NCBI GenBank assembly: GCA_013216005.1
Contig: JABSOJ010000013.1
Location: 1 to 43,615 of the forward strand
Reading direction: 5' to 3'
From: Alteromonadaceae bacterium
GTDB taxonomy: Bacteria; Pseudomonadota; Gammaproteobacteria; Enterobacterales; Alteromonadaceae
DNA: 43,615 nt
Shown here in pieces: positions 223 through 43,496 of this stretch; positions within the stretch are counted from its first letter, which is position 1; the number at the start of each line of letters is the position of its first letter. Made by a program: the position numbers and the translations under genes. The notes under the pieces are model-generated. The model was given only the letters and a program-made list of their open reading frames with translations, did no database searches and was not told the origin of the DNA.

Positions 223-903
223 ATGAAACAAGTTAAACGGAAAGCGGGCATTACCGCAAACATGGAAATTAAAACCAGTCGTCGAGGGTTATTCAAAAAA
301 GCTGCTATTGGGGTTCCAATAGTTATGACGCTTGCTAATCGACCAGCATACGGTGCCGTATGTTCTATTTCTGGTTTTCAATCAGTTAACCCGTCTGGTG
401 TGAAAATTATAGATGGAAGTTGTGGAGGTTTTAGCCCTAGGGGTTGGACGCACCCTGACGAAGGAGGTGGCGCCACAGATGGCAGTCGCAAAGATTGGTA
501 TGACGCAGGTTATAACCCTAACCCTAGAATTTCTGAAGAAAGTGGTCGTAAAAAAAAGCGTAAAAAAGCTAGAACAAGCAATGCCACTGGCGATCCATTA
601 GGTACACTATTTTCTGATCGAAGAGCTTTCGGTAAACGTGCTCCTGGGTATCCTTCAGATGCTACACTGCACGATATACTTATTGCAGGCAATGGCACTC
701 TCGTATGGCATGCAATCGCTAATTTCTTAAATGCCGGTTTATTTGTTAATTATCGCCTTAGTCAACTTGATGTTGTTGGTTTATATTGGGCATATGTTGA
801 TTTAGATGATGAGTATACAACAGATAGTGGCACTGTAATAAACATGGCTATAGTTGAACAAAATACTGGTGGCTTACAATCGTTTTTTGATCAATACCAT
901 TAA
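223..903 (+). CDS. Tat-signal-like exported protein of unknown function; candidate substrate of the downstream PqqD/HprK-related cassette
   Basis: ORF with N-terminal TSRRGLFKKAAIGVPIVMTLANRPAYGA (twin-arginine motif, hydrophobic stretch, AxA-like cleavage site). Start could be 223 or 262. Confidence 0.75.
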   Translation: MKQVKRKAGITANMEIKTSRRGLFKKAAIGVPIVMTLANRPAYGAVCSISGFQSVNPSGVKIIDGSCGGFSPRGWTHPDEGGGATDGSRKDWYDAGYNPNPRISEESGRKKKRKKARTSNATGDPLGTLFSDRRAFGKRAPGYPSDATLHDILIAGNGTLVWHAIANFLNAGLFVNYRLSQLDVVGLYWAYVDLDDEYTTDSGTVINMAIVEQNTGGLQSFFDQYH

Positions 904-936
904 ATGTTTACTCACTGTGTTTGATGATTTAGTTAA

Positions 937-1245
937 ATGACTCAGTTTTATAAATTAAATACAAAAAATAAAATACATCACTACTTTTGTAATTCTGAAG
1001 TAGTGGTCTATATTGTTAATAGTAAGGAAACACTCTTGTTATCGTCCTATATGGCGGTAATATTTCGTTGTTTGGTTACTAAGGAAAATAATCTTCAATA
1101 TTCTCAAGAAGTGCTTATAGATTTGTGCAATTTGGATCAGGAAGTCAGTAAAGAGAAAAGTATTATTAATGATACAGATTTACACCATCATTTTGATGAA
1201 TGTCTGGCAAAACTGGTTAATTTACAATTAATTGAGTCTGTTTAG
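937..1245 (+). CDS. PqqD-like peptide chaperone (HPr-rel-A system type)
   Basis: Small ~100-aa ORF, overlapping by one base with a HprK-related kinase gene; PqqD-like length and pattern. Confidence 0.65.
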   Translation: MTQFYKLNTKNKIHHYFCNSEVVVYIVNSKETLLLSSYMAVIFRCLVTKENNLQYSQEVLIDLCNLDQEVSKEKSIINDTDLHHHFDECLAKLVNLQLIESV

Positions 1246-2153
1246 TGATTTTAAAAGAATACTCCCCCAAAGAAATAAAAAAGTTATTAATATCCTCTGG
1301 TTTGTCCTTTCGAGTTGGTCGTTTTACGGTTAATTTAAAGTCAAATATTTCAAATGTAATAAAGGGGATAAGTAAGCTTTATGCGGAAAGTGAAATCATT
1401 TCGCAGCCTTGTGATTTTTCGGTTACATTGAATCGCTCTACGGGTATTCGTTCATTTGTTAAACCTCAAGCACATTTTTCATTTAATGGTATTGAACCTT
1501 TTTCCCCTTTGCCTGTTTCCCAGGCATTTCCATTATTTGAGTGGGGTTCAAATTGGTGTGTAACCAATCATTGTCATCAATATTTAGTTATTCATGCGGC
1601 TGTTGTTGAAAAGAATGGATTTGCTTTAATATTACCCGGGCAATCAGGTTCAGGTAAAAGTACCCTGTGTGCTGCTTTGGTTACAATTGGGGGATGGCGT
1701 TTGTTATCAGATGAGTTAACGATGCTTCGTCTGGATGATCTGAAAGTAGTACCTAACCCAAGGCCAATTAGCTTAAAAAATCAGTCAATTGATATCGTAA
1801 AATCGATATCTGATCAGAATAAATTCAGTTCAGTCGTTAAAGACACTATTAAAGGGACAGTTGCACATTTATGTCCGCCAAAACAGGATGTACTCGATTT
1901 TGATGTTCTAGCCACGCCTGCTTTAATTGTTTATCCAAAATATCAAAAAGATTCAGAATGCTACTTGCAAGAGTTATCGAAAGGTGAAAGTTTTATTCGG
2001 TTAGCTGATCACTCTTTTAATTATTCAATATTAGGTCTTGAAGGTTTTGAAATCTTATCAAAGTTACATGATAAGGTTGAGTGCTATGAATATTGTTATG
2101 ATGGCGACTTTAAAGAGGCACTAAATTTAATGGATTCTTTGTTACCCTCATGA
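1245..2153 (+). CDS. HprK-related kinase A
   Basis: P-loop LPGQSGSGKSTLCAALV followed by LLSDELTML, an HPr kinase-like arrangement. Confidence 0.8.
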   Translation: MILKEYSPKEIKKLLISSGLSFRVGRFTVNLKSNISNVIKGISKLYAESEIISQPCDFSVTLNRSTGIRSFVKPQAHFSFNGIEPFSPLPVSQAFPLFEWGSNWCVTNHCHQYLVIHAAVVEKNGFALILPGQSGSGKSTLCAALVTIGGWRLLSDELTMLRLDDLKVVPNPRPISLKNQSIDIVKSISDQNKFSSVVKDTIKGTVAHLCPPKQDVLDFDVLATPALIVYPKYQKDSECYLQELSKGESFIRLADHSFNYSILGLEGFEILSKLHDKVECYEYCYDGDFKEALNLMDSLLPS

Positions 2154-3256
2154 AAAGTTCAAATGTATTAGTTAAATTTTTAATTACTCCGATAATTGTT
2201 AATCGTTGGTCTCAAAAGGAATGGCAGCAATTAATACAGCAGGCATATGTCACTAACTTAATGGCTCGGGTTCATTTTATTCTGAATGACAACAAGCTGA
2301 TTAAGTATGTACCGAACAATGTTGAATGGCATTTCACATCAGCACATAAAGTTTATCTTGCACATCAACAAGACGTTTTAAATGAAGTGTCGGTTATTTG
2401 CAATGCCCTGAAATTGGCAAATATAGCACCGGTATTCTTAAAAGGAACAGCCTATTTATTAGCTGATGATAAATGTAATCAAGGTAGATTATTTTCAGAT
2501 GTAGATATTTTTGTTATTAAATCTGAATTGGATTCGACCGAAAAAATGCTGCATTGGAATGGTTGGGTGGGTGAAGAGGTAGATCAACATGATGAGAAGT
2601 ATTATCGTGATTGGATGCATGAAATACCTCCTATGACTAATACTAAAACACATATGACAATTGATGTTCATCATAACTTGGTTCCGCTAGTAAGCAGGAT
2701 TAAATTAAATAGCGACAAATTGTTAGAAACTATTGAGACTGTAGGGGATTATAAAATACTATCAATGGAAGATAGGATCCTTCACAGCGCGGTACATTTG
2801 TTACTTGATGGTGAATTTAATCAAGGATTCAGGGATCTCCATGATCTATATTTACTTATTTCTGATGGCTTATCTGTAAATAAAGATTTTTTAGTTGTTC
2901 TATATACAAGATCTCAACAACTTGGTTTTGAATTGATCCTTTATTATTGTCTTAGTCTAATGTCTATAGTTTTTAACTTGGATGTTGATACACGAGTAAC
3001 GAAAGAATTTGAAAAAAACATCAAGTCACCTCTGACCGCAAAATTAGTTTTAAAACTGTTTTGTCAGGTGTTAAATCCTACAGAAAAACTAATAAAGTCT
3101 TATAAATACAGAATTTCATTGTTCATGTTATTTATTCGATCACATTGGATAAAAATGCCGTTTCAAATGCTCATTCCCCACTTGTTATACAAAGCGTTTA
3201 TTACACCCTATAATGAGTGGAAGAAAGCCCAAAAACAGAATGAAGAGCATAACTAA
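2150..3256 (+). CDS. Nucleotidyltransferase family protein
   Basis: FLKGTAYLLADDKCNQGRLFSDVDIFV nucleotidyltransferase-like motif; overlaps the kinase gene by 4 nt. Confidence 0.7.
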   Translation: MKSSNVLVKFLITPIIVNRWSQKEWQQLIQQAYVTNLMARVHFILNDNKLIKYVPNNVEWHFTSAHKVYLAHQQDVLNEVSVICNALKLANIAPVFLKGTAYLLADDKCNQGRLFSDVDIFVIKSELDSTEKMLHWNGWVGEEVDQHDEKYYRDWMHEIPPMTNTKTHMTIDVHHNLVPLVSRIKLNSDKLLETIETVGDYKILSMEDRILHSAVHLLLDGEFNQGFRDLHDLYLLISDGLSVNKDFLVVLYTRSQQLGFELILYYCLSLMSIVFNLDVDTRVTKEFEKNIKSPLTAKLVLKLFCQVLNPTEKLIKSYKYRISLFMLFIRSHWIKMPFQMLIPHLLYKAFITPYNEWKKAQKQNEEHN

Positions 3257-3363: not shown

Positions 3364-5394
3364 TTGGAATTACTCGGTTTATTTGGTTATATCTTTGCAA
3401 GTTGTGCATATTTTATATTTATCCTCCTGTTATTGGCGGCTCGCAATCGCACTGTGTCTGGAACTCTGGTTTTATTGGCGAGCTCAGCTGCTTTAGCTTC
3501 TTTTACTACTGGAATTTTCCAGTTGGAACATCAGTCGTTAATTAAAACAATTTTAGTCTTTGAAACACTGAAATGCTTATTTTGGTCGTTGATCATTTTA
3601 GCAACACGTGCAGGTGTACAAACGCTCAAAGACCTCTTCAACAGTACCGCTATTAAGCAATATCTTTCTATCTGGACATTCATTACTCTGGCTAGTTGGT
3701 ATAGTGCAATTTACGTTGAAGGTGGTACTAAATTCCTATTTATGCTGTTTCTGGTCCTTAATTTATGGGCTTTGGTTATGTTGGAACAGCTCTACCGTAA
3801 CGCTGAGCTTAAGTCCAGATGGGCGTTAAAACCTTTCGTTATTGCCTTAGGCACTGTTTTTGTTTTTGATTTCATAATGTTTGCTCAAGCATCAATGCTT
3901 AATCAACTGGATTTTAATTTTTGGTATATACGTTCCATTATAGGTGCCGCCAGTGTACCTTTTTTGTTAGTAAGCACCAGAAGGATGAAAGATTGGTCAG
4001 TAAATATTTTCATCTCCCGGGATGTGGTGTTTTACAGCTCAATGTTGTTGATTTCCGGATTGTATTTATTAGTAATGGCTTTCGCTGGTTTTGTGCTTAA
4101 TTATTTTGGTGGCGAATGGGGCATTAATTTAAGCGTTGTTTTTTTAGTGATGGGTAGTATTGTATTAGCCGTATTATTGATCACTGAAAGGTTACGTAGA
4201 GAGGTTAAGGTATTTATTACTAAACATTTTTTTGCAAATAAATATGATTATCGTTTTGAATGGCTGAAGCTTATAGAAAAACTTGAAATTTGCGAAAGTG
4301 GTGATTTTTACCAAACAGCACTGAATGCTATCAGATCAACGATGAATATTCCCACAGGGATTATTGTAAAAAAACAAAATTTGGGCCGTTATGAAATTGC
4401 CTATAGTAAAGGAATAATTCCTGACCATTGTTTGTTTAGCCAGCTGAAAAATATTGAGCAATTTTGTCAGGAGAGAAATTGGATCATAGATATACGTGAA
4501 TATGAGAAGTTTGAAAATAGTTATTTAGACTTAACTATTGATAGCGATATTTTTGCACAGTTCAATATATCTATTATTGTACCAATTGTTATAGGGGGTA
4601 ATTTGTATGGCTTTTTTCTCTTATCTTCACCTATAGCTGAAAAGAGGTTATTGAATTGGGAAGATCGTGATTTACTCTCGGCTATTTCTAATCAGTTAAG
4701 TCATTATTTATCGCTAAATGAAGCGAATGATAAAATAGCAGAATCTAAGCAGTTTGATGCATTTAACCGTATGTCTGCTTTTTTAGTACATGATTTAAAA
4801 AACGTACAAGCACAATTGACCTTAATTAGTAGTAATGCCAAAAAACATCGTGATAATCCGGAGTTTGTTGATGATGCATTTGAAACTATTGAATCTGCTA
4901 CTGCAAGATTAGATCGGGTGTTAACCCAACTACGTAATAAAACAGTTGTTGAAACTGAGCATAAAAAGATTAACATTAATGAATTGCTCGAAACAGTTGT
5001 TGAACAACGTAATATTGATTTTCCTAAAGTTGAATTAGCATTGGAACAACCAATTGAAATGTTCATTGAACAGGAAACGTTTAGTGCGGTGATCAGTCAC
5101 TTAATTCAAAATGCGCAGGAAGCGACAAGTGGTGATGGATGGGTTAAGATAAAAGTATCATTTTTTGATGAGCGGTTGAATATAGCCATAGCGGATAATG
5201 GTTGTGGTATGTCAAAAAGTTTTATTGCAGAAAGGTTATTTAAGCCATTTGATACGACTAAAGGAAATGCTGGTATGGGTATTGGCGTCTTTGAAGCAAA
5301 GCAATTTATTGAAAGTTTGGGTGGCAGTATACAAGTAATAAGTTTTGAAGATAAAGGAACGAGTTTTCATTTATCAATACCAAATACAAATTGA
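3364..5394 (+). CDS. prsK: XrtA/PEP-CTERM system histidine kinase PrsK
   Basis: N-terminal multi-TM region, GAF-like region, FLVHDLKN H-box, HLIQNAQEAT N-box and ADNGCGMS / GMGIGVFEAKQF ATPase boxes; followed by a PrsR-like regulator. TTG start. Confidence 0.88.
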   Translation: MELLGLFGYIFASCAYFIFILLLLAARNRTVSGTLVLLASSAALASFTTGIFQLEHQSLIKTILVFETLKCLFWSLIILATRAGVQTLKDLFNSTAIKQYLSIWTFITLASWYSAIYVEGGTKFLFMLFLVLNLWALVMLEQLYRNAELKSRWALKPFVIALGTVFVFDFIMFAQASMLNQLDFNFWYIRSIIGAASVPFLLVSTRRMKDWSVNIFISRDVVFYSSMLLISGLYLLVMAFAGFVLNYFGGEWGINLSVVFLVMGSIVLAVLLITERLRREVKVFITKHFFANKYDYRFEWLKLIEKLEICESGDFYQTALNAIRSTMNIPTGIIVKKQNLGRYEIAYSKGIIPDHCLFSQLKNIEQFCQERNWIIDIREYEKFENSYLDLTIDSDIFAQFNISIIVPIVIGGNLYGFFLLSSPIAEKRLLNWEDRDLLSAISNQLSHYLSLNEANDKIAESKQFDAFNRMSAFLVHDLKNVQAQLTLISSNAKKHRDNPEFVDDAFETIESATARLDRVLTQLRNKTVVETEHKKININELLETVVEQRNIDFPKVELALEQPIEMFIEQETFSAVISHLIQNAQEATSGDGWVKIKVSFFDERLNIAIADNGCGMSKSFIAERLFKPFDTTKGNAGMGIGVFEAKQFIESLGGSIQVISFEDKGTSFHLSIPNTN

Positions 5395-5446: not shown

Positions 5447-6793
5447 ATGGAAAAATTACTAATAGTTGATGATGATCTTGGTATTCAAAAACAATTAAAA
5501 TGGAGCTTTACTGATTATGAGGTTGTGCTGGCGGCAGACCGTGAAAGCGCTATCACTGCTGTACGTCGTCACGAACCTAAGGTAGTTACATTAGATTTAG
5601 GTTTACCGCCGGATCCAAGCAATGCCTCTGAGGGGTTAGCTGCATTAAAAGAAATACTGGTTATTGCCCCTTTTACTAAAGTTATTGTTATAACCGGTAG
5701 TGATGATAGGGCACATGCATTACAGGCGATAGAAATAGGTGCTTATGATTTTTATCAAAAACCTGTCGATTCTGACGTTATTAATACCATTGTTTCACGA
5801 GCATATAGCGTATCCAGGATTGAAGCTGAGAATAGGGCATTAAGGTCAGTTTATAGTGCTGACAGTGGCATTATTGGTAGTAGTGAGGCAATTTCCAGGT
5901 TGCAAAGTATGGTGCAGCGTATTGCACCAACCAATATTACCGCTTTATTGTTAGGTGAAAGTGGCACAGGTAAAGAAGTTACCGCAAATGCTGTGCATTC
6001 ACTAAGCGATCGTAAGAAAAAGCCTTTTATTGCAATTAACTGTGCCTCGATACCAGAAACTTTATTGGAAAGTGAATTCTTTGGTTATGAAAAAGGGGCT
6101 TTTACGGGAGCTCATAAAACAACTAAAGGTAAAATTGAATGTGCTGAAGGTGGAACCTTATTTCTTGATGAAATAGGTGATATGCCTTATAACTTGCAGG
6201 CTAAGTTGTTGCGCTTTTTACAAGAAAAAGTGATTGAACGATTGGGTGGACGTCAAGAAATTCCCGTTGATGTCAGAGTTGTTTGTGCGACGAATCAAAA
6301 TTTGGAAGAGATGGTTAAAGAAAAAACTTTTCGTGAAGATTTGTTTTATCGAGTCAGTGAAATAACGTTGAATATTCCACCACTTAGGGATCGGGACGAA
6401 GATGTGATCATTCTTGCACAATTTTTCCTTCAGAAATATGCCTTGGAATATAAACGCAATATTAAAACTTTTTCTGAAGATGGACTTAGTGCAATAAAAG
6501 CACATCGTTGGCCTGGTAACATTCGAGAATTACAAAATAAGATAAAAAGTTCGGTTATTATGGCTACTGGAACCCAAGTTACAGCGTTTGATTTAGGCTT
6601 TTTTGATCATGAAAATAACGATTATGAACTTTCCCTCAATTTGCGCGCAGTAAGAGAACAGGCGGAAACATTAGCTATTCAAAAAGCTTATGCATTAAGT
6701 GAAGGAAATATGTCGAAAGCTGCTGATTTATTAGGTATAACGCGACCAACATTATATTCATTGATTGATAAATATTCTTTGAATATTAATTGA
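5447..6793 (+). CDS. prsR: Sigma-54-dependent response regulator PrsR
   Basis: Receiver domain (LIVDDDLGIQ, TLDLGLPPD), GESGTGKE Walker A, GAFTGA sigma-54 contact motif, C-terminal Fis-type HTH. Confidence 0.92.
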   Translation: MEKLLIVDDDLGIQKQLKWSFTDYEVVLAADRESAITAVRRHEPKVVTLDLGLPPDPSNASEGLAALKEILVIAPFTKVIVITGSDDRAHALQAIEIGAYDFYQKPVDSDVINTIVSRAYSVSRIEAENRALRSVYSADSGIIGSSEAISRLQSMVQRIAPTNITALLLGESGTGKEVTANAVHSLSDRKKKPFIAINCASIPETLLESEFFGYEKGAFTGAHKTTKGKIECAEGGTLFLDEIGDMPYNLQAKLLRFLQEKVIERLGGRQEIPVDVRVVCATNQNLEEMVKEKTFREDLFYRVSEITLNIPPLRDRDEDVIILAQFFLQKYALEYKRNIKTFSEDGLSAIKAHRWPGNIRELQNKIKSSVIMATGTQVTAFDLGFFDHENNDYELSLNLRAVREQAETLAIQKAYALSEGNMSKAADLLGITRPTLYSLIDKYSLNIN

Positions 6794-24569: not shown

Positions 24570-25994
24570 ATGAAAATAACAGATATTCGTTTTATTACTT
24601 TATTATCAATATTAGTGAGCATTTGGGCATACGTATTTAGTGATGCTCTTTTGTCAATGGAGGGCATTTGGCGACGTTCTGACACTTTTGCACATGGCTA
24701 TTTTATTTTCCCTATTAGTGTTTGGTTGGTATGGAGAGGTAGACAGACTTTAATTGCTAATAGCACCTCATTTTCCTGGTTAGCGTTGTTAAGTTTATCT
24801 GGGGCGTTAGCTGTCTGGTTATTTTCTTATGCGGCTGATATCAATATATTAGGGCAATTATCTGCTGTAGTTGCGTTAATTTCTCTTCTTTGGTTAATGA
24901 TTGGGAATCGATTGGCTTGGCATTATAAATTTCAGTTAGTCTTTTTATTGTTTGCAGTACCAATGGGGGAAAATTTAATCCCGTGGTTACAAGATGTAAC
25001 TGCTTGGTTTACGGTTACATTTTTGAAGTTACATGGTATTCCCGTTTTTCGGGATGGCTTGTATATTCAAGTCCCCAGTGGAATGTTTGAAGTTGCTGTT
25101 GCCTGTTCAGGTATACGCTATTTAATTGCTTCACTAGCGGTTGGAACCTTATATGCGTATTTAACTTACCAAAAAGGGTATAAGCAAATCGCATTTATTA
25201 TTTTTGCTGGTATTATACCAATACTAGCTAACGGGATAAGAGCATATCTTATTGTTATTATTGCTCATTATTCTGATATGGAATATGCTACAGGGGCTGA
25301 TCACCTTATTTATGGTTGGGTGTTTTTTGGTTTGGTCATCATGTTTATGTTCTGGATTGGCGGAAAGTTTGCGGACCCTGAACCAGAGATGGATAAAGCA
25401 GTCATCTACCCTCAACCTGCTTCAATTAATTCAATTCGATACTTGTTGGTATTAATTCCGTTTTTTATTGTGGTTTTATTATCTCGTAGCATTCCTGTTA
25501 TTGAACCGCCAAGTAGTGTTCAAACTGCTTTGAAAGGACAAGAAGTTAGCCATTCTGATTGGGGGATCTCTTTTAGTGATAGTTTAAATCAATCTCATAT
25601 TTTATCTGAAGAAGGGCTTGAAATTTACAAAGCAGTTTATGCTAACAAACAGTCTAAAGGCGAGTTAATCTCTTCAATTAATTATTTGCATGAACATGAA
25701 AAATGGACGGTAATAAATCAAGAAACCTTTGAATTTAACAAGGGTAGTGTGAGCATGATTCAAATGCGGAATATCGTCGGTAAAACAAGAAGTTACATTT
25801 ATCAATATAGGGCGGGTAGTTATCGCTCATCGTCTAAAAATATTATTAAATTAGTACAAGCATGGAATAGTTTATCGAGACAATCCGACTATAGTGAGAT
25901 TGTTGCCATTTCAATAGAAAATAATGATAGCTTTGAAGTAAGCAAAAGAATTTTAAAGCAAGCTTTGCTCACCATGAATAAAATTGAACAATAA
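24570..25994 (+). CDS. xrtA: Exosortase A with fused EpsI-like C-terminal domain
   Basis: Catalytic-type Cys (VACSGIRYLIASL), Arg (NGIRAYLIV) and His (GADHLIYGWVFFG) in multi-TM region; C-terminal periplasmic EpsI-like domain. Confidence 0.93.
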   Translation: MKITDIRFITLLSILVSIWAYVFSDALLSMEGIWRRSDTFAHGYFIFPISVWLVWRGRQTLIANSTSFSWLALLSLSGALAVWLFSYAADINILGQLSAVVALISLLWLMIGNRLAWHYKFQLVFLLFAVPMGENLIPWLQDVTAWFTVTFLKLHGIPVFRDGLYIQVPSGMFEVAVACSGIRYLIASLAVGTLYAYLTYQKGYKQIAFIIFAGIIPILANGIRAYLIVIIAHYSDMEYATGADHLIYGWVFFGLVIMFMFWIGGKFADPEPEMDKAVIYPQPASINSIRYLLVLIPFFIVVLLSRSIPVIEPPSSVQTALKGQEVSHSDWGISFSDSLNQSHILSEEGLEIYKAVYANKQSKGELISSINYLHEHEKWTVINQETFEFNKGSVSMIQMRNIVGKTRSYIYQYRAGSYRSSSKNIIKLVQAWNSLSRQSDYSEIVAISIENNDSFEVSKRILKQALLTMNKIEQ

Positions 25995-27159: not shown

Positions 27160-29061
27160 ATGTGTGGTATCGCTGGGATTTTTCATTTGTCGGGTAAGCA
27201 TGATATTGATCCAAACATTATTTCAATAATGAATGATAAACAGTTACATCGGGGACCGGATGCTGGAGATTATTTTTTTGATCCCGGTGTGTCATTGGCC
27301 CATCGTCGTTTGTCCATTATCGATTTAGAGGGAAGTCCTCAACCTATGTTAAGCGCATGTCAGCGTGCGATAATTGTTTTTAATGGTGAAATATACAACT
27401 TTAAAGAGTTACATAAAGAACTGACAGCAAAAGGTTATGTATTTAAAACTCACGGGGATACTGAAACTATTTTAAATGCATATTTAGAATGGGGAGAAGA
27501 TTGTGTTCACCATTTACGGGGAATGTTCGCTTTTGTTGTTTGGGACCGTCAAAAAGAAACGTTGTTTATGGCACGGGATCGCCTTGGTATTAAGCCCTTC
27601 TTTTTTAGTTTACTTGAAGATGGACACTTTATTTTTGGTTCAGAACTGAAAGTATTAACAGCACACCCATTATTTGATAAAAGATTACGTGACACGACGG
27701 TTGAAGATTATTTTACTTTTGGCTATGTACCTGAACCCAATACAATATATCAAAATGCATTTAAATTACCGCCGGGTCACAGATTGTTGTTGAAGAAAGG
27801 CGATAAAGCTGTCCCTAATTCTCAGGAATACTGGGATATACCAACGGATATAAATGAGTCTTTAACTAAAGAAGAAGTGAATGAACAACTAGTTGAGCGA
27901 TTGAAGGAAGCTATCGAAATAAGAATGGTGGCGGATGTACCGTTAGGTTCATTTTTGTCGGGTGGTGTAGATTCAAGTGCCATTGTGGCATTAATGTCTC
28001 AATTACAATCGGATCCGGTTAATGCTTGTTCCATTGGTTTTGATGTAAAAGAGTTTAATGAAACAGACTTTGCCATAACGGTTGCAGAACGATATAAAGC
28101 AAATCATCGAATTGATATTGTTGGTCAGGATGATTTTGATTTAGTTGATAAGTTAGCTGCTTTATATGATGAACCATACGCCGATAGTTCAGCAATGCCG
28201 ACTTATCGCGTATGCGAACTTGCCAGAAAGCATGTAACAGTAGCATTGTCAGGAGACGGAGCTGATGAGTTATTTGCTGGTTATGGACGCTACCGTTGGC
28301 ATATGAATGAAGAAAAACTTCGTGGATCACTTCCTTTAAGTCTCCGTAAAGCTATTTTTAAGCCTCTCGGAGTGTTATACCCTAAACTTGATTGGGCGCC
28401 GAAACTTTTACGGGCGAAAACAACATTTCAATCATTAGCGATGAATACGGTCGAAGGTTATCACAACTCTATATCGATTTTACGTCAAGATGAACGTAAT
28501 AAACTCTTTTCGTCGTCGTATAAACAAAAATTAAATGGTTATACTTCTTTAGAAGTTTTTAAACAATATGAAAATAAGTTAGGTTCATTGGATTCGATGA
28601 AAATAGCTCAATATCTTGATTTGAAAACATATTTAGTTGGCGATATTTTGACAAAAGTTGATAGAGCGAGTATGGCACATAGCCTGGAGGTAAGAGTACC
28701 ATTCTTAGACCATAAATTTGTTGAATGGGGGTTTAGAGTTCCTTCGTCAATTAATTTAGTGAAAGGTGTTGGGAAAAAATCATTAAAAAGAGCATTGGAA
28801 CCTCACTTACCTCATGACGTTTTGTACCGTAAAAAAATGGGATTTTCGGTACCTTTGGCCGATTGGTTTAAAGGACCATTAAAAGATCGTTTGTATGATG
28901 GGTTATTGTCATCGAAAATGAAAAACAGTGGTTATTTCAATGAAAAACAATTGCAGAACTTAATTGAACAACACGTCAAAGGGGTACGCGATAATAGTGC
29001 GCCACTTTGGTCGCTTATGATGTTTGAATCATTTTTACGGCAAAACAATATAGGTGGATAA
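27160..29061 (+). CDS. XrtA/PEP-CTERM system amidotransferase (asparagine synthase-like)
   Basis: MCGIAGIF class II amidotransferase start; SGGVDSSAIVALMS PP-loop. Confidence 0.93.
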   Translation: MCGIAGIFHLSGKHDIDPNIISIMNDKQLHRGPDAGDYFFDPGVSLAHRRLSIIDLEGSPQPMLSACQRAIIVFNGEIYNFKELHKELTAKGYVFKTHGDTETILNAYLEWGEDCVHHLRGMFAFVVWDRQKETLFMARDRLGIKPFFFSLLEDGHFIFGSELKVLTAHPLFDKRLRDTTVEDYFTFGYVPEPNTIYQNAFKLPPGHRLLLKKGDKAVPNSQEYWDIPTDINESLTKEEVNEQLVERLKEAIEIRMVADVPLGSFLSGGVDSSAIVALMSQLQSDPVNACSIGFDVKEFNETDFAITVAERYKANHRIDIVGQDDFDLVDKLAALYDEPYADSSAMPTYRVCELARKHVTVALSGDGADELFAGYGRYRWHMNEEKLRGSLPLSLRKAIFKPLGVLYPKLDWAPKLLRAKTTFQSLAMNTVEGYHNSISILRQDERNKLFSSSYKQKLNGYTSLEVFKQYENKLGSLDSMKIAQYLDLKTYLVGDILTKVDRASMAHSLEVRVPFLDHKFVEWGFRVPSSINLVKGVGKKSLKRALEPHLPHDVLYRKKMGFSVPLADWFKGPLKDRLYDGLLSSKMKNSGYFNEKQLQNLIEQHVKGVRDNSAPLWSLMMFESFLRQNNIGG

Positions 29062-36811: not shown

Positions 36812-39800
36812 ATGAGCGATGAGTTAATGTTGGGGCAGACCAAAAAGGTTGATTTTGCCTGTTTTTTTATTAGCTCTCTCATATTTCTCGCTGCTGTTTT
36901 TAATATCACTTCAAGTCCCATGAGTGTTTGGTGGCTTATTCCCCTTTGTTTGTATTTTTTATTGGTGGTTTATCGACCTTACTGTGTATTTGTCATATTA
37001 CCAATAAGTATCGTGCTAATTGATAGTAAAAGTTGGATTGGCTTTAGTGTCTTTAATGAGTTTGATAGTTTAATTTGGTTAACCGTGGCGGCGGGAATTC
37101 TTCATTTCAAAAATAAAATTCAGTTTTTAGTTAATCATTCACCAATATTTCTTGTTATTTTTTTAGCCTTGGTTTTTATAAATGTGGGTCTGCAAGGTGG
37201 TTTTGGGTCATTTGTTACCGAGACTAATCCTTATTATGATAATAGTTATAGCGTTTTTATTGCGAAAGGCATTGTTTATGGGGCGCTTTTAGCTATTTTA
37301 TTTGTCACCGATTATTTTTATTATCCAGAAGAAACCAAGATGTCCTGGTTTTACGGAGCCGCAACCAGTGCGTTTTTATTATTTATAATTGTGCTTTGGG
37401 AAAGAGGTACATTATTAGCCTTATTTGAAGGAAATACATGGTGGCACGGTGTTAGTTCATTATTGAATTTCAGTGGTTCTTACAGGGTAACGGGATTTTT
37501 TGCTGAAATGCATACGGGAGGGGAAGCGTTTGATGGTATTGTCCTTTTCTTATTAGCCGTAAATTTGTTTGCTTTTTTAAATGCCAGGCAAATGTGGCAA
37601 AAAAACGTTTATCTTTTGGCGTGTTTTGCTGTCACGTACTGTGTTTTGGTTGGTTATACAAGAGCGACTTATCTTGCGGCTTTTGTATTGGTCGGCTCTT
37701 TAGTTGTCTTTTGGCAATTGAAAGTAGTTCCCCGACGGCAACGTTTTACGCTAGCTGAAGTGATACAGAGTTCATGTCTTTGTATTTGCTCTGTACTGAT
37801 ATTAAAATATAGCGGATTTGCAAGCTTAACCCTTCATTTAGTTTTATTAATCGTTTTTCCCTTGTTAATGTTTATATCAAAAAATTTAAACTTGAATAGG
37901 CTTAGTTCAAACTTCCTTTATACTTTAATTTGGTTCATTGTACTTCTATTTTCTTATGTGCAGCAATCAGAAAGTAAATGGTTTGATAATACTTTCTCCT
38001 TTCATAATAGGTTGTTCATTTTATCCTTTATATTTTTTGGCATATTACTGTTTCTTCATAAAAATTTAACCGCAAAGCTCTCTGCTACACTGTTGCGAAA
38101 TATAGTCATGGTTGTTATTTCATCTGTCTTGTCCGTTGGATCTGTTGGTTATCAAATAAATGCTAGATTAGACCATGTAGAAAGAGATTTTATGACCAGA
38201 GTGTTCCATTGGCAAAGCGTTATTCAATCAGGCGATTGGTTGACATCACAGTGGTTGTTTGGGCATGGTGTGGGTAGTTTTCCTAAGAATTATGCATTAA
38301 CTTTTCCTGAAGAAATAAAGAAAATAGGTAGCTTTGAAATAAAAGATAGTAAGTTAAATATAGGTATTGGAGAAGATTTAACTATAGGGCAAAGAATTAA
38401 GGTTGAATCTGGAAAACGTTATTTGTTGACTGGTCATTTCAGTGCTGAAGAGCAGGCAAAATTGCTGGTAGGGATATGCTATAGAAATATTCTCTACCCG
38501 ACAAATTTTGCACCTAATTGCAATTATCGACCAATTGCTTCAAACACTTTAAGTCATAAGTTTTCTGTTGATCTTTATTCACCTGAGTATAAAACATCAG
38601 GGAACTCTCTTTTGCAGTGGCCAGCTTTCTTCGTTGTAAAAAACATTTCAGATCATCAAATTATTTCTATTAATTGGTTAAAATTAGTTGGTAGTGATAA
38701 AACTACTGATCTGTTAAAAAATGGCGATTTTTCAAATAACCTTGAAAATTGGTATTTTTATAATGATTATAATCATCTCCCTTGGCATATCAAAAACATA
38801 TATTTGAGCTTTGTTTATCAATTGGGATTGATTGGCGTACTACTTTTATTCATATTGATTTTTCAAGCTTTGTGGAAACGTCATTCAGATCCCTTCATTG
38901 CTTTTTATCAGTATACCTTGGTTTCTTTATTGTTGGCGTTATGCGCTTTTGGAATGTTTGGCGATCCGTTTGATTCCCCTAAGGCTAGTACATTATTATC
39001 ATTACACTTATTTTCTTGTGTATTATTTACTGTAATTTATAAGCCCCAAAAACGGCTATTTAACGTATCAAAAGTTCAAGTTGTCACATTTTTTAGTGTG
39101 ATAGTTATTCTTCTGGGTAGTTTACATTTTGGTCTTAAATACTATTTGCAAATGAGTTACTTAGAATTTGTGAGTCAAAAACAAAGAGTAAAAGATGGTA
39201 GTGCATATGTTTCGACAAGGCGAGATGAATTATCTATTGAGGATTGGAATGAATATGAAGTTGGTCCTAAATTACAGCCGTTAAGTGCTCGTCATTCATA
39301 TTCAAAAAAATTATATAAAGTAAGTAATGTCAAAGCGTTTTTATCAAGGATCCGTGCGGCAAGACCCGGAGATTCAATTGAGCTTCAACCGGGGTACTAC
39401 ACTATTAATGGACACTCTATTGCTTTGCAAACAGCAGGCACCGAATTATTACCTATTGAAATTACTGCAAGTCAAGCTGGTAAAGTAATAATAGAGTTTA
39501 ACTTAATAGAAGGCTTTCATATTAGTCAGCCTTATTGGAATATCAATAATTTAATTATTGTAGGGATATGTAAGGTAGATAAACTATGTGAGCATGCTTT
39601 TCACATTGTTGGGAAAGGGCATAATACAAAAATAATTAACAATATAATTAAAAATTTCAACTCGCCATTTAAAATTAACCAAAAGGATGGGGATTTTCCG
39701 GATAAAGGCATAATTAAACAGAATGCGATTTATAATAATGATGCCAGAGATACAGCTACGCCTGTTACTTTTATTGATTTAGTCTCCGCTAGTGGTTGGA

Positions 39801-40477
39801 GTGTGGAAAATAATTTTGTAGCTGATTTTGCTAAGAAGGGAGGCGATCACATAAGTTACGGCATGTTTTTTAAAGGGGCCGGAGAACGAAATATTTTTAA
39901 ACGTAATCTTGTTGTTTGTGAATGGAGGCATAAAGGCGGATTTCGTATTGGAACATCGATAGGTGGTGGTGGTACGGGGGCAAAGTTTTGTCGCGATTTA
40001 AAATGTGATGTAGAGCAGAGTAATAGTAGTATTATTAATAATGTTGTAATGCATTGTCCTAATGATGTTGGCTTGTATGTCAATAAAGGTAAAAATACTT
40101 TGGTGGCGCAGAATATTTTTTATAGAACTCGTGGTATTGATGTCCGTTTTAAAGAATCGGATGCTCTTTTAAGTAATAACATTATAGACGGTAGAGTGTG
40201 GACTCGTGATGGTGGGCAAACCCAATTGATTAATAATCAATATAGTCAATTGAACGCATTCTTGGGTTTATCTTTGGTTGAGGAGCTTTATCAAGCGCCA
40301 TGGAAAGGTGACTTCAGGGTATTGGATATGGAAAGTTTAATGATGTCTGAACCTACTAACAAAGAGAGTAATGATTTTTGTCAAGTTCAGCCAATGAATC
40401 GCAGATCTATAGGGCCGTTTGAAATATTTATTGACCCTCCTTGCCAACCAAATTTTAAATTTATCCGACAAGATTAA
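36812..40477 (+). CDS. O-antigen ligase/polymerase-like membrane protein with periplasmic jelly-roll-like insertion and C-terminal parallel beta-helix domain
   Basis: 1221-aa ORF: ~12 TMs with VGYTRATYLAAFVLV and FGHGVGSFPKNY; insertion with LLKNGDFSNNLENWYFYND; C-terminal part ARPGDSIELQPGYYTINGHSIAL and repeated NNII/NNLI beta-helix rungs. Confidence 0.8.
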   Translation: MSDELMLGQTKKVDFACFFISSLIFLAAVFNITSSPMSVWWLIPLCLYFLLVVYRPYCVFVILPISIVLIDSKSWIGFSVFNEFDSLIWLTVAAGILHFKNKIQFLVNHSPIFLVIFLALVFINVGLQGGFGSFVTETNPYYDNSYSVFIAKGIVYGALLAILFVTDYFYYPEETKMSWFYGAATSAFLLFIIVLWERGTLLALFEGNTWWHGVSSLLNFSGSYRVTGFFAEMHTGGEAFDGIVLFLLAVNLFAFLNARQMWQKNVYLLACFAVTYCVLVGYTRATYLAAFVLVGSLVVFWQLKVVPRRQRFTLAEVIQSSCLCICSVLILKYSGFASLTLHLVLLIVFPLLMFISKNLNLNRLSSNFLYTLIWFIVLLFSYVQQSESKWFDNTFSFHNRLFILSFIFFGILLFLHKNLTAKLSATLLRNIVMVVISSVLSVGSVGYQINARLDHVERDFMTRVFHWQSVIQSGDWLTSQWLFGHGVGSFPKNYALTFPEEIKKIGSFEIKDSKLNIGIGEDLTIGQRIKVESGKRYLLTGHFSAEEQAKLLVGICYRNILYPTNFAPNCNYRPIASNTLSHKFSVDLYSPEYKTSGNSLLQWPAFFVVKNISDHQIISINWLKLVGSDKTTDLLKNGDFSNNLENWYFYNDYNHLPWHIKNIYLSFVYQLGLIGVLLLFILIFQALWKRHSDPFIAFYQYTLVSLLLALCAFGMFGDPFDSPKASTLLSLHLFSCVLFTVIYKPQKRLFNVSKVQVVTFFSVIVILLGSLHFGLKYYLQMSYLEFVSQKQRVKDGSAYVSTRRDELSIEDWNEYEVGPKLQPLSARHSYSKKLYKVSNVKAFLSRIRAARPGDSIELQPGYYTINGHSIALQTAGTELLPIEITASQAGKVIIEFNLIEGFHISQPYWNINNLIIVGICKVDKLCEHAFHIVGKGHNTKIINNIIKNFNSPFKINQKDGDFPDKGIIKQNAIYNNDARDTATPVTFIDLVSASGWSVENNFVADFAKKGGDHISYGMFFKGAGERNIFKRNLVVCEWRHKGGFRIGTSIGGGGTGAKFCRDLKCDVEQSNSSIINNVVMHCPNDVGLYVNKGKNTLVAQNIFYRTRGIDVRFKESDALLSNNIIDGRVWTRDGGQTQLINNQYSQLNAFLGLSLVEELYQAPWKGDFRVLDMESLMMSEPTNKESNDFCQVQPMNRRSIGPFEIFIDPPCQPNFKFIRQD

Positions 40478-40688
40478 GTGTTTTATTTACTGAGTTTCAG
40501 GATGTTTTTGTGTTGATAATATGTTTGTGATTTGTTTGTAGCCCCCTGTGTCAGGATAGATCTAACCCTCAAAGCGAATTGTCTGTGTTCTGTTCTGTGC
40601 AGAATAATCGCTTATTACCAGACGGCTATTGTGACCTTCCCATTATTCGATGTTATAAAAACAATTATCACTTTAGTCATAATAAAAA

Positions 40689-40716
40689 GGAAGATTAAAT
40701 TTCAATTTAATCTTCC
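40689..40716 (-). terminator. Rho-independent terminator for the minus-strand lipoprotein gene
   Basis: GGAAGATTAAAT-TTCA-ATTTAATCTTCC perfect 12-bp stem; on the minus strand followed by TTTTTATT. Confidence 0.85.
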
Positions 40717-40769
40717 TAATATCTTTGCAGCTAAAGATAATTAAGTTTTTGATTTAATCAACTAGGGAA

Positions 40770-43496
40770 TTACTCATTGTCTTGTTTCCTCGGCAAAATC
40801 GCCCATTTGGGATTGTCATCGTATATAGTTTTAATAGCGATGTTTTGTTTAACATACTGCCATAATTCGTGATGGTTTTTAAATCCTTCAAGGTAGGCTG
40901 CTGCGGCCATAGTTATGCTATGGTAACCATGTTCAGGATCATTATTAGTTCTTATAAAATTTTCTACTTCATTTATATATTCAGAGGTATATTGTGAATA
41001 TATATCATGCCATGTTGTGAACCATTCATTGTTTTGATCTAAGGTTGGTACTATGTAGGCACAGATCATAGCATGGGGTAGGCTTGGATCAGAAAATGGT
41101 TCTAATAATTGACTTCCGGCAAATATTAATAAACTATCTGTGTTATAGCCAAGTTCTTTTGCTCTTCCAAGAGCAATAATTACAAAATTTTGCATCCACG
41201 GAGCCAGAGCCCGGTTAACATTATCAGTATTTACTCTATCAGGGTGTACATAACTGGGACTGTGTGTACCTTCATCCCATTGCCCTATTTTAGACGGCAT
41301 TCTTGCCGTTTTAAATCCATTCTTAACTAAATCTTTTTTAACAAAACTATGCAGGTCACTATGTAAAGTGTTTGATAAAGGCAAATTCATTAAGCCTTCC
41401 CACATAGAAATAGCATTTTGATTAAGCAAATGAAAATATGATTTTTCCGGGCTGCTATCAGGCAAAATATCATAGGTGTGTACTCTGGTTCTAAAAGCCC
41501 AAGCTTGTCCTCTAACTTCTCCTGAATATAATCCCCCTTCTGAGCCGGTAGGTCCTCGACCTAATGTTGAAGAATATCCTACGGCATTATTATCACCGCT
41601 AACAAAAGCAGCTGAAAATAACATTTGTTCTAAGTAAAAATAATCTCCTGTTAGTAAGTATTGTGGGCTGGCCAACTCAGGATGATGGGCTTTATCTGCT
41701 ACCCAGTTTGTTTTTATTAAGGGGAAGAGTGGATTGATTTTATCTTCGGTTTTAACTTCATACCAATCTGGTCTGGCTGTCCAGTGAGTAGGTCGTGCAA
41801 GTGGAGCCATTGAGATTATTTTTCCAAGCGCCTCAACTGTGCCATTCATGTCAAATTTTAAGCCTGCTCTTCCTTCCCGTAAGTGAATTGGCCAGGCACT
41901 AGCCAATTCACTTTGCTTTAACGCAATTTCCTGGTGTCGCCAATCTCCTGTGTATAACCATTTTATGGTCCAGGTAGGGTATATACCTATATCAGGTCTA
42001 CCACCTCCCACTCCCATTGCTGGTTGCCACCAACCTTTTTGATATATGTCTTTATCTTTTGTCTGCCAGATATTCCAGTCATTAGTAACTATTTGTTCAC
42101 TTATGACTTTTGTGGTATCAAAATTGGGTAATGATTTCGATTTTATTAAATAGTCAATATTGTGATTAATTGATAGCGTTTGTAATTGTTCTCCAGACCA
42201 GACTTTTTTAGTCCATCGGGTCATTGCCTGGTGAGGTACATTCTCTTGTTGATAAAAGGGGTTGTCATTAAAGTCGATATATAAACTCAGGTGATAACTT
42301 TGATCTTGCAGTGCTTCCGTATTCATTGCTTCTGCGATATAACGAACTGAATATTTTTTTATTCCTGGCCAGAAAGTGACGTGGAAAATGGGACGAATAG
42401 AACGATGTTCATCGGCACCAATATCATAAAGTCTGTCAATTGAATGGTCTTTTATTATTATTGTTGTGGCAATAGGGCCTGTTAGCCAGTATTCAAAATC
42501 GTTATTTTCAAGCATTTGTCTTGCCAGAACTGTTTTCTCTTCAGGAAAGTAAAATTTCATTGTGGCATCAAAGAAGTAATCAGTTGACAACATCTGCTGC
42601 TTAGTTAAAGGTTCATTATTATTTTGTGTTGTATTGACAAAATTAACTGTTTTTGAGCTGTTTGCGGGCAACTCTGCAAGAATGAAGCTGATAATCGCGT
42701 GTTTTACACTGCCATTATGGTATCGTTGTTTGACATCTGCTTGTGTGTTTATTTTGATGCCATCAATCATAACTTGTGGAAAATTTTGAATGTCATCTTC
42801 CACAAAAGAACGGCCAAACTGAACGGGGTAATCAATTTGTTTCTTGCCATGAGGTTCGGTTATTAAAATAGTATTCGATTTTTTATTGAAAGGAACCGTG
42901 GAAAATGTGGCGTGGAGACTTTTTGATCCGTTCATCGTTATAGAGCATGATGATGTTCCTCTGCAGCCATCACTCCAGCCGTTGAAGACAAAACCATCAT
43001 TTGCTAAAGCCTTTAATTCGATAGTATCTCCTTCTGTGTAGGATCGCTGGCAATCTGGTGTACAATCGAGGATTTGGTCATCAATTTTAACTAGGCCCCC
43101 ATTGTCAATTTGTAAACTCAACACATATGTAGTCGGTAGAACTTCGAAATTAGCCGTAACATTCTTATTTTGATTCATGGTTAATTGGCATTTTGTCATA
43201 CCTTGGCAAGCACCAGACCAGCCAGTAAAAATCGGGTTTTCATCGGGTTCAGCTATAAGCTCAACTGTTGTATCTGCAAGGATGTCAACGGTACAATTTT
43301 TTTTACAGGCTTCATTTATTGGTAAAATACTGACAGTACCTAATGGAGCTGGGCCAGAGAATTCTATCGTTAAATTGTAGTTAACAGAAGTGTCAGGTGG
43401 CACTGTTTGGTTATTAGCTTCCCCGGAACCGCAAGCAGATGAAGAAAGAAATAAGGTAATAAAGAAAACCTTTTTGAAGGTAGTGATTGCTTTCAT
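40770..43496 (-). CDS. Secreted lipoprotein with two InlB B-repeat-like domains and a large putative polysaccharide-active region
   Basis: Lipobox FLSSSACGSG; two repeats (FTGWSGACQGMTKCQLTMNQNKNVTANFEV, FNGWSDGCRGTSSCSITMNGSKSLHATFS); downstream domain resembles RIFT-barrel/(alpha/alpha) polysaccharide lyase-like proteins. Confidence 0.7.
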   Translation of the reverse strand: MKAITTFKKVFFITLFLSSSACGSGEANNQTVPPDTSVNYNLTIEFSGPAPLGTVSILPINEACKKNCTVDILADTTVELIAEPDENPIFTGWSGACQGMTKCQLTMNQNKNVTANFEVLPTTYVLSLQIDNGGLVKIDDQILDCTPDCQRSYTEGDTIELKALANDGFVFNGWSDGCRGTSSCSITMNGSKSLHATFSTVPFNKKSNTILITEPHGKKQIDYPVQFGRSFVEDDIQNFPQVMIDGIKINTQADVKQRYHNGSVKHAIISFILAELPANSSKTVNFVNTTQNNNEPLTKQQMLSTDYFFDATMKFYFPEEKTVLARQMLENNDFEYWLTGPIATTIIIKDHSIDRLYDIGADEHRSIRPIFHVTFWPGIKKYSVRYIAEAMNTEALQDQSYHLSLYIDFNDNPFYQQENVPHQAMTRWTKKVWSGEQLQTLSINHNIDYLIKSKSLPNFDTTKVISEQIVTNDWNIWQTKDKDIYQKGWWQPAMGVGGGRPDIGIYPTWTIKWLYTGDWRHQEIALKQSELASAWPIHLREGRAGLKFDMNGTVEALGKIISMAPLARPTHWTARPDWYEVKTEDKINPLFPLIKTNWVADKAHHPELASPQYLLTGDYFYLEQMLFSAAFVSGDNNAVGYSSTLGRGPTGSEGGLYSGEVRGQAWAFRTRVHTYDILPDSSPEKSYFHLLNQNAISMWEGLMNLPLSNTLHSDLHSFVKKDLVKNGFKTARMPSKIGQWDEGTHSPSYVHPDRVNTDNVNRALAPWMQNFVIIALGRAKELGYNTDSLLIFAGSQLLEPFSDPSLPHAMICAYIVPTLDQNNEWFTTWHDIYSQYTSEYINEVENFIRTNNDPEHGYHSITMAAAAYLEGFKNHHELWQYVKQNIAIKTIYDDNPKWAILPRKQDNE

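Follow-up and report, generated by a model that had tools for sequence, protein, structure and literature searches.

Several described systems contain parts of the one considered here. HPr-rel-A is a computational system named in NCBIfam, with an HprK-related kinase (TIGR04352), a PqqD-like protein (TIGR04353) and a nucleotidyltransferase as its members. The libraries name no substrate for it, and our literature search found no paper on it. A similar combination tailors the lasso peptides paeninodin (PadeK/ThcoK) and pseudomycoidin (PsmK/PsmN): an HprK-like serine kinase, a nucleotidyltransferase homologue that acts after the kinase, and a leader-binding PqqD-type RRE (recognition element of ribosomally synthesized and post-translationally modified peptides, RiPPs). 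In pseudomycoidin, PsmK places a phosphate on a serine, and the addition of a hexose to this phosphate requires PsmN (PMC9266682). In the case of bufferins and oxazolins, MNIO enzymes work with HvfC/BufC; bufferin precursors are modified before their export by Sec and, according to preliminary results, the signal is part of what is recognized (PMC12452194). Here we describe a stretch of 43,615 nucleotides, contig JABSOJ010000013.1 of an Alteromonadaceae bacterium, in which the HPr-rel-A trio is preceded by a fourth gene for a protein with a twin-arginine translocation (Tat) leader. The whole stretch is called the window below, and all DNA and residue numbers refer to it and its proteins. We propose that the four genes form a system that modifies a protein before its export, and as a full scheme we give this proposal a probability of about 0.55. 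HPr-rel-A has been a named system without a target. The Tat-leader family, which accompanies the trio in nearly every locus, now appears to be its missing substrate.

The four genes lie on the forward strand at positions 223-3256. They encode the Tat-leader protein (223-903, 226 residues), a PqqD-like RRE protein (937-1245, 102 residues), an HprK-related kinase A (1245-2153, 302 residues, with a GTG start) and a PF14907 nucleotidyltransferase (2150-3256, 368 residues). An earlier note on this DNA had described four compact genes with the last three overlapping, and so they are, the overlaps being 1 and 4 bases. Kinase family and gene order are those of HPr-rel-A. The set is conserved in many environmental proteobacteria, including the culturable Methylomonas sp. 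LW13, Thiobacillus thioparus DSM 505 and species of Massilia and Duganella.

Does the Tat-leader protein belong to the trio? The earlier note had proposed co-occurrence across genomes as the check, and two surveys supply it. In the first survey, 369 genomes of the class and 60 relatives were scanned for a kinase scoring over the cut-off, which was found in 41 and 19 of them, respectively. A Tat-leader protein is encoded directly upstream, on the same strand, in 57 of 58 loci, and the remaining locus ends at a contig edge; the profile behind this count was iterated on the same 58 loci. The same profile was used to scan an independent set of 80 named loci, which had been drawn from 84,980 species genomes. 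There the Tat protein stands directly upstream in 78 loci, and the nucleotidyltransferase is present in all 80. One of the two exceptions (L167) is cut at a contig end; the other is taken up below. Among the 7380 open reading frames of this set, 78 of the 79 profile matches fall at the expected upstream place, and the part of the protein after the leader is by itself sufficient for detection in 74 loci. The converse also holds: each of the 31 genomes, among the 369, with a strong full-length match to the family group of the window protein (class A, see below) has such a match at the kinase locus. We reject the idea that the Tat gene is an ordinary neighbour, because it accompanies the trio even in loci that lack prsK and the other exopolysaccharide genes. 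It seems to us very probable that the Tat protein and the trio are partners. One genome carries a second Tat protein of the same class with no trio genes alongside (L249:2405-3601, minus strand), while the trio is elsewhere in that genome. This copy keeps CTLSGMMSGNVS, which suggests that it is modified in trans.

The Tat-leader protein of the window belongs to what we call class A of its family. No Pfam or NCBIfam family matches it or ten of its relatives, and neither its sequence nor its fold has a match in PDB; assignment to a known family was therefore rejected. It is recovered by its own family profile, built with the window sequence held out, at E=8e-28. By alignment its leader comprises residues 1-44 (223-354) with the twin arginine at residues 20-21; the family pattern suggests cleavage after residue 44. 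The earlier note had pointed to the leader SRRGLFKK, followed by CSISGFQSVNPSG just past the predicted cleavage site. Both are in place, at residues 19-26 and 47-59 (361-399), respectively. R20 and R21 are kept at 97-98% in relatives and the genome encodes TatC (245 bits), which fits a Tat substrate; export by this route is thus predicted.

Conservation was assessed in an alignment of 125 class-A relatives, again with the window sequence held out. Besides the twin arginine, the best conserved residues are two serines of the post-leader segment, Ser54 (99%) and Ser50 (98%). They are followed by Cys47 and Cys67 (both 94%), Asn170 (93%) and Phe136 (91%), while Ser58 is kept at 79%. The consensus right after the leader is C-x2-S-G-x2-S-G-N-x-S, and many Betaproteobacteria have the variant C-x-S-P-S-G-F-x-S-G-N-x-S. 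Such near-invariant serines, placed just after a leader, are the mark to be expected of a target site for a relative of serine kinases, and the segment is our candidate for the modification site. The rest of the mature protein is a C-terminal helical domain (421-900; C67, G-x-SPR-x-W ... FLNA ...). Larger Sec-type surface proteins encoded outside the cassettes end in the same domain, and the ones examined are without the serine segment. The fold, then, does not require the segment, and it is unlikely that the serines are conserved as part of it. The domain, recognizable by [ST]PG[YF]W ... AAxLNA, has no name and is more widespread, forming the C-terminus of multi-domain Sec-exported surface proteins (L243, L244, L246, L247, L248). 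The earlier note had also listed a basic RKKKRKK patch as a feature of the substrate. In the alignment the relatives do not share this patch, and we dropped it as a functional element.

The catalytic residues of the two enzymes are intact. The kinase matches TIGR04352 with 345 bits (cut-off 200) and is the only kinase of this family in the genome. It aligns to the catalytic core of the HPr kinase (HprK/P) of L. casei, 1jb1, at E=0.004. His117, the GxGK(S/T) loop (GSGKST in the window) with Lys138, Asp156 and Glu157 are kept in all 138 sequences compared. These residues are comparable to the His-Lys-Asp-Asp set on which the lasso-peptide serine kinases depend, except that the last Asp is Glu here (PMC9266682). 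The nucleotidyltransferase matches PF14907 with 123 bits (cut-off 31). Its K98-G99, R113, D117-x-D119 and D172 are invariant in 136 of 136 sequences; invariant residues of this kind are expected of an active polymerase-beta-type enzyme.

The PqqD-like protein of the window, taken alone, matches no library model, TIGR04353 included. Its positional counterparts do: 29 of 30 match TIGR04353 ("HPr-rel-A system PqqD family peptide chaperone") and 18 of 30 match PF05402. A profile of these counterparts built without the window finds the window protein at E=1.2e-13. Together with the kinase score, these matches agree with the earlier note, which had named the trio as HPr-rel-A. The AlphaFold model of the protein (mean confidence, pLDDT, 86) matches lasso RRE complexes of TbiB1 with its leader with a probability of 1.00 and template modelling (TM) scores of 0.66-0.77. 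The modelled protein thus has a leader-binding RRE fold, and binding of a leader is predicted. This gives the locus the layout of a RiPP-type system, with an RRE fold and, beside the enzymes, a precursor composed of a leader and an invariant core segment; it is the core that would be modified.

The following scheme can be suggested. After synthesis of the Tat-leader protein in the cytoplasm, the PqqD-like RRE protein would bind it, probably via the leader, and deliver it to the HprK-related kinase. The kinase would phosphorylate Ser50 and/or Ser54 in C-x2-SG-x2-SGN-x-S. The nucleotidyltransferase would then extend the phosphate by attaching a nucleotidyl group or a sugar phosphate to it, which is the role that has been proposed for PsmN in pseudomycoidin. 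The enzymes must act before export because they have no export signals and need cytoplasmic adenosine triphosphate (ATP). The Tat pathway can transport a finished protein. The modified protein would leave by this pathway, act outside the inner membrane and join the PrsK/PrsR-controlled programme of exosortase-A exopolysaccharide and PEP-CTERM surface proteins. The parts of this scheme deserve different degrees of belief. The Tat protein is probably a covalent substrate of the trio. By a modest margin over the contrary, we favour the post-leader serines as the modified site, with phosphorylation as the initial step. A role in the extracellular matrix is a more tentative suggestion, for which we would not claim even odds. 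With two near-invariant serines, the question can be put to the test by one mass-spectrometry experiment in culturable bacteria. If the scheme is correct, phosphate-based chemistry and the Tat route would be added to what is known of RRE-guided modification.

Among described systems, PsmK/PsmN of pseudomycoidin would be the closest chemical model, while for the sequence of modification and then export the nearest precedent may be the bufferins. Neither is the same system. The cassette has no lasso precursor, B2 protease or dedicated lasso cyclase; its substrate is 200-270 residues long and has a Tat leader, and the class-A serines follow this leader, whereas the target serine of lasso peptides is at the C-terminus. 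Lasso cyclase and B2 leader peptidase are missing both from the four genes and from their immediate neighbours. The gene at 27160-29061 resembles asparagine synthase and encodes the XrtA amidotransferase, TIGR03108 (990 bits); the lasso cyclase model gives it 270 against a cut-off of 525. Membership in a lasso cluster was accordingly rejected. The likeness to bufferins and oxazolins lies in an RRE-type partner and a cytoplasmic enzyme that work on a precursor whose export signal can be cleaved off, but the signals there belong to Sec, and the cassette contains neither an MNIO (DUF692) enzyme nor a Sec signal. SynChlorMet (ScmC, TIGR04249; ScmD, TIGR04248) also combines an HprK-like with a PqqD-like protein. 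The similarity is weak: the ScmC model gives 27.5 bits (cut-off 125), and five of 30 PqqD-like proteins fall below E=0.1 to ScmD.

Class A is not the only cargo found with such kinases. Proteins of another type, here class B, go with a kinase clade of 15 rows (support 99/99); they have the same Tat leader and an unrelated mature part. Their C-terminus is mostly C-x2-S-[IL], for example GACLKSLWG or GACLTSIYS, with the serine constant among the C-termini compared. The earlier note had proposed to test whether a Tat-leader protein with a conserved SG..S.N.SG segment always co-occurs with the trio. The two best-conserved residues outside the leader, both serines, do lie inside the segment; the class-B sub-lineage, however, has another mature protein behind the leader, so that the segment is usual and not universal. 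A more distant kinase clade (100/99) is paired with Tat peptides of 57-90 residues that have GS three to five residues past an A-x-A site; these loci also hold PqqD-like genes and, in some cases, nucleotidyltransferase genes. Along the kinase tree, the cargo type switches no more often than it has to. This agreement is supporting and not decisive, since linkage alone could produce it. We tentatively suggest, at somewhat less than even odds, that the combination of an HprK-like kinase with an RRE partner and a nucleotidyltransferase marks an entire class of proteins and peptides that are modified on serine and exported by Tat, with at least three non-homologous cargo types (SG..SGN.S in class A, C-x2-S-[IL] in class B and the 57-90-residue GS peptides) that have only the Tat leader in common and a kinase clade each. 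If true, no RiPP-like products before these would have been known to use Tat for export, and they would belong to the exosortase-A extracellular matrix programme.

A few observations on these loci can be added. Class-B loci are L066, L068, L079, L081, L105, L108, L110, L111, L112 and L250-L259, and in several of them the nucleotidyltransferase gene is divergently oriented. The short Tat peptides occur at L143-L152 (for example L144:7653-8885, L145:7976-8203 and L147:4576-6391), several in tandem and often with CNNGVGNG..C.PG. Standing beside a weaker second HprK-like clade with a PqqD-like protein of its own, they are a parallel miniature system. On a contig labelled Pirellulaceae (Planctomycetota; L239), the kinase pairs with a gammaproteobacterial one (100/100), as a result of either gene transfer or a binning error.

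The surroundings of the cassette link it to exosortase A. Beyond the cassette, the contig is taken up by an exosortase-A exopolysaccharide locus, in which XrtA (24570-25994) is accompanied by the polysaccharide genes usually associated with it. Directly downstream of the cassette, on the same strand, are prsK (3364-5394; TIGR02916, 730 bits) and prsR (5447-6793; TIGR02915, 752 bits), whose products we propose as its regulators. In the first survey XrtA scores over its cut-off in 35 of 41 genomes with the kinase and 38 of 328 without it, an odds ratio of 44.5, uncorrected for relatedness.

The cis-site of PEP-CTERM genes that is assigned to PrsR consists of a 17-nucleotide motif ending in TTTACA, a spacer of 62.8 +/- 10.6 nucleotides, a sigma-54 element and a further 71 +/- 38 nucleotides (PMC1569441). 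We took as the mark of the PrsK/PrsR regulon this motif 1, a spacer of about 63 nucleotides, the sigma-54 element and 23-221 nucleotides to the start codon. The window has this arrangement on its forward strand. A probable PrsR activator site, GCCTAGGTTACTTTACA (75-91), keeps the TTTACA end (86-91), its TGTC half being weak; after a spacer of 63 nucleotides comes the sigma-54 -24/-12 promoter element TGGTGTAAATATTGCA (155-170), 52 nucleotides before the ATG of the substrate gene. This element is the sole match to TGGYGYRNNNNTTGCW in the 43.6-kilobase window, with 0.09 expected. A strict scan of the genome for TGTC-N7-TTTACA did not return the window site, because motif 1 of the window is without TGTC; the site rests on TTTACA, the spacing and the sigma-54 element.

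Other cassettes show the same architecture. A k-mer enrichment with no prior motif, run upstream of homologous cassettes, yielded TTTACA and TGTCGGAA. The -24/-12 element scores high upstream of 81 of 130 substrate genes, as against 29 of 682 control upstream regions and 1.8% of shuffles. Combined, the architecture is a 17-nucleotide TGTCGGAAWWWTTTACA, a spacer of 71 +/- 11 nucleotides and the sigma-54 element, which lies a median of 59 nucleotides before the start. In full it is found in 65 of 131 cassettes, 15 of 695 control upstream regions (several of these look like true sites of neighbouring genes) and one of 655 shuffles. The exported protein thus shares with PEP-CTERM proteins the cis-regulatory architecture, the genomes and, in the window, also the locus. 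It differs from them in its Tat route and its own cytoplasmic enzymes, and we rejected PEP-CTERM membership: there is no C-terminal PEP motif, hydrophobic helix and basic tail, the window protein ending in ...GGLQSFFDQYH, and a PEP-like string occurs in just one of 135 relatives. A new secreted protein is thereby assigned to the PrsK/PrsR regulon that serves exosortase-A exopolysaccharide, a programme involved in floc and biofilm formation.

Several points weigh against our proposal. Genes of one operon are inherited together, so that neither linkage nor agreement of trees proves contact between the products. L173, from Nitrosospira, has the kinase and the nucleotidyltransferase and no Tat substrate gene upstream; this could be due to loss, a sequence error or a substrate encoded elsewhere. 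Glu157 of the kinase stands where HPr kinase has its second Asp, and we know of no settled activity for PF14907 proteins. The AlphaFold model of the Tat protein is of moderate quality (pLDDT 70), low in the leader and below 60 in the serine segment. The modification site must be a different one in class B, as the mature protein is different. The chemistry of bufferins, iron-dependent oxidation of cysteine, is unlike that of a kinase and a nucleotidyltransferase.

What else might the trio do? Its target may be a small molecule, a sugar linked to a lipid or some other exopolysaccharide-pathway protein. The Tat protein would then be an exported partner, binding or using the product, with Ser50 and Ser54 as its binding site. 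Conserved serines may also be a binding motif, and the strong association with XrtA and the shared promoter would suit such a role. Yet RRE proteins bind peptides, and the structure that matches best here is that of an RRE with its leader bound. Moreover, the segment is absent from the examined proteins that have the C-terminal domain outside the cassette, and no sugar or lipid enzyme is constant in the cassette. We regard this possibility as unlikely. Another suggestion would make the PqqD-like protein a Tat proofreading chaperone, while the kinase and the nucleotidyltransferase install a nucleotide-type cofactor (compare flavin and molybdenum cofactors); a covalent cofactor on serine would be a special case. 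Tat is typical for proteins completed in the cytoplasm, and the leader is common to all substrate classes. However, the mature parts of class A, class B and the short peptides are wholly different, which is unlike one cofactor-binding fold, and the fold searches found no known cofactor fold, so we think this quite improbable. Finally, the cassette adjoins prsK/prsR in the window and in some relatives, as would a regulatory HPr-kinase-like module of exopolysaccharide production with the Tat gene merely a co-regulated neighbour. Most loci of the independent set have no prsK nearby and yet keep the Tat gene, and no HPr or phosphotransferase system (PTS) gene was noticed in the cassette; we think such a module very improbable. 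Modification of the Tat protein before export is the reading we prefer.

At the end of the exopolysaccharide locus (36812-43496) are genes for a 1221-residue protein with weak similarity to chondroitinase B (PF14592) and a 908-residue protein with divergent InlB B-repeat domains (PF18998).

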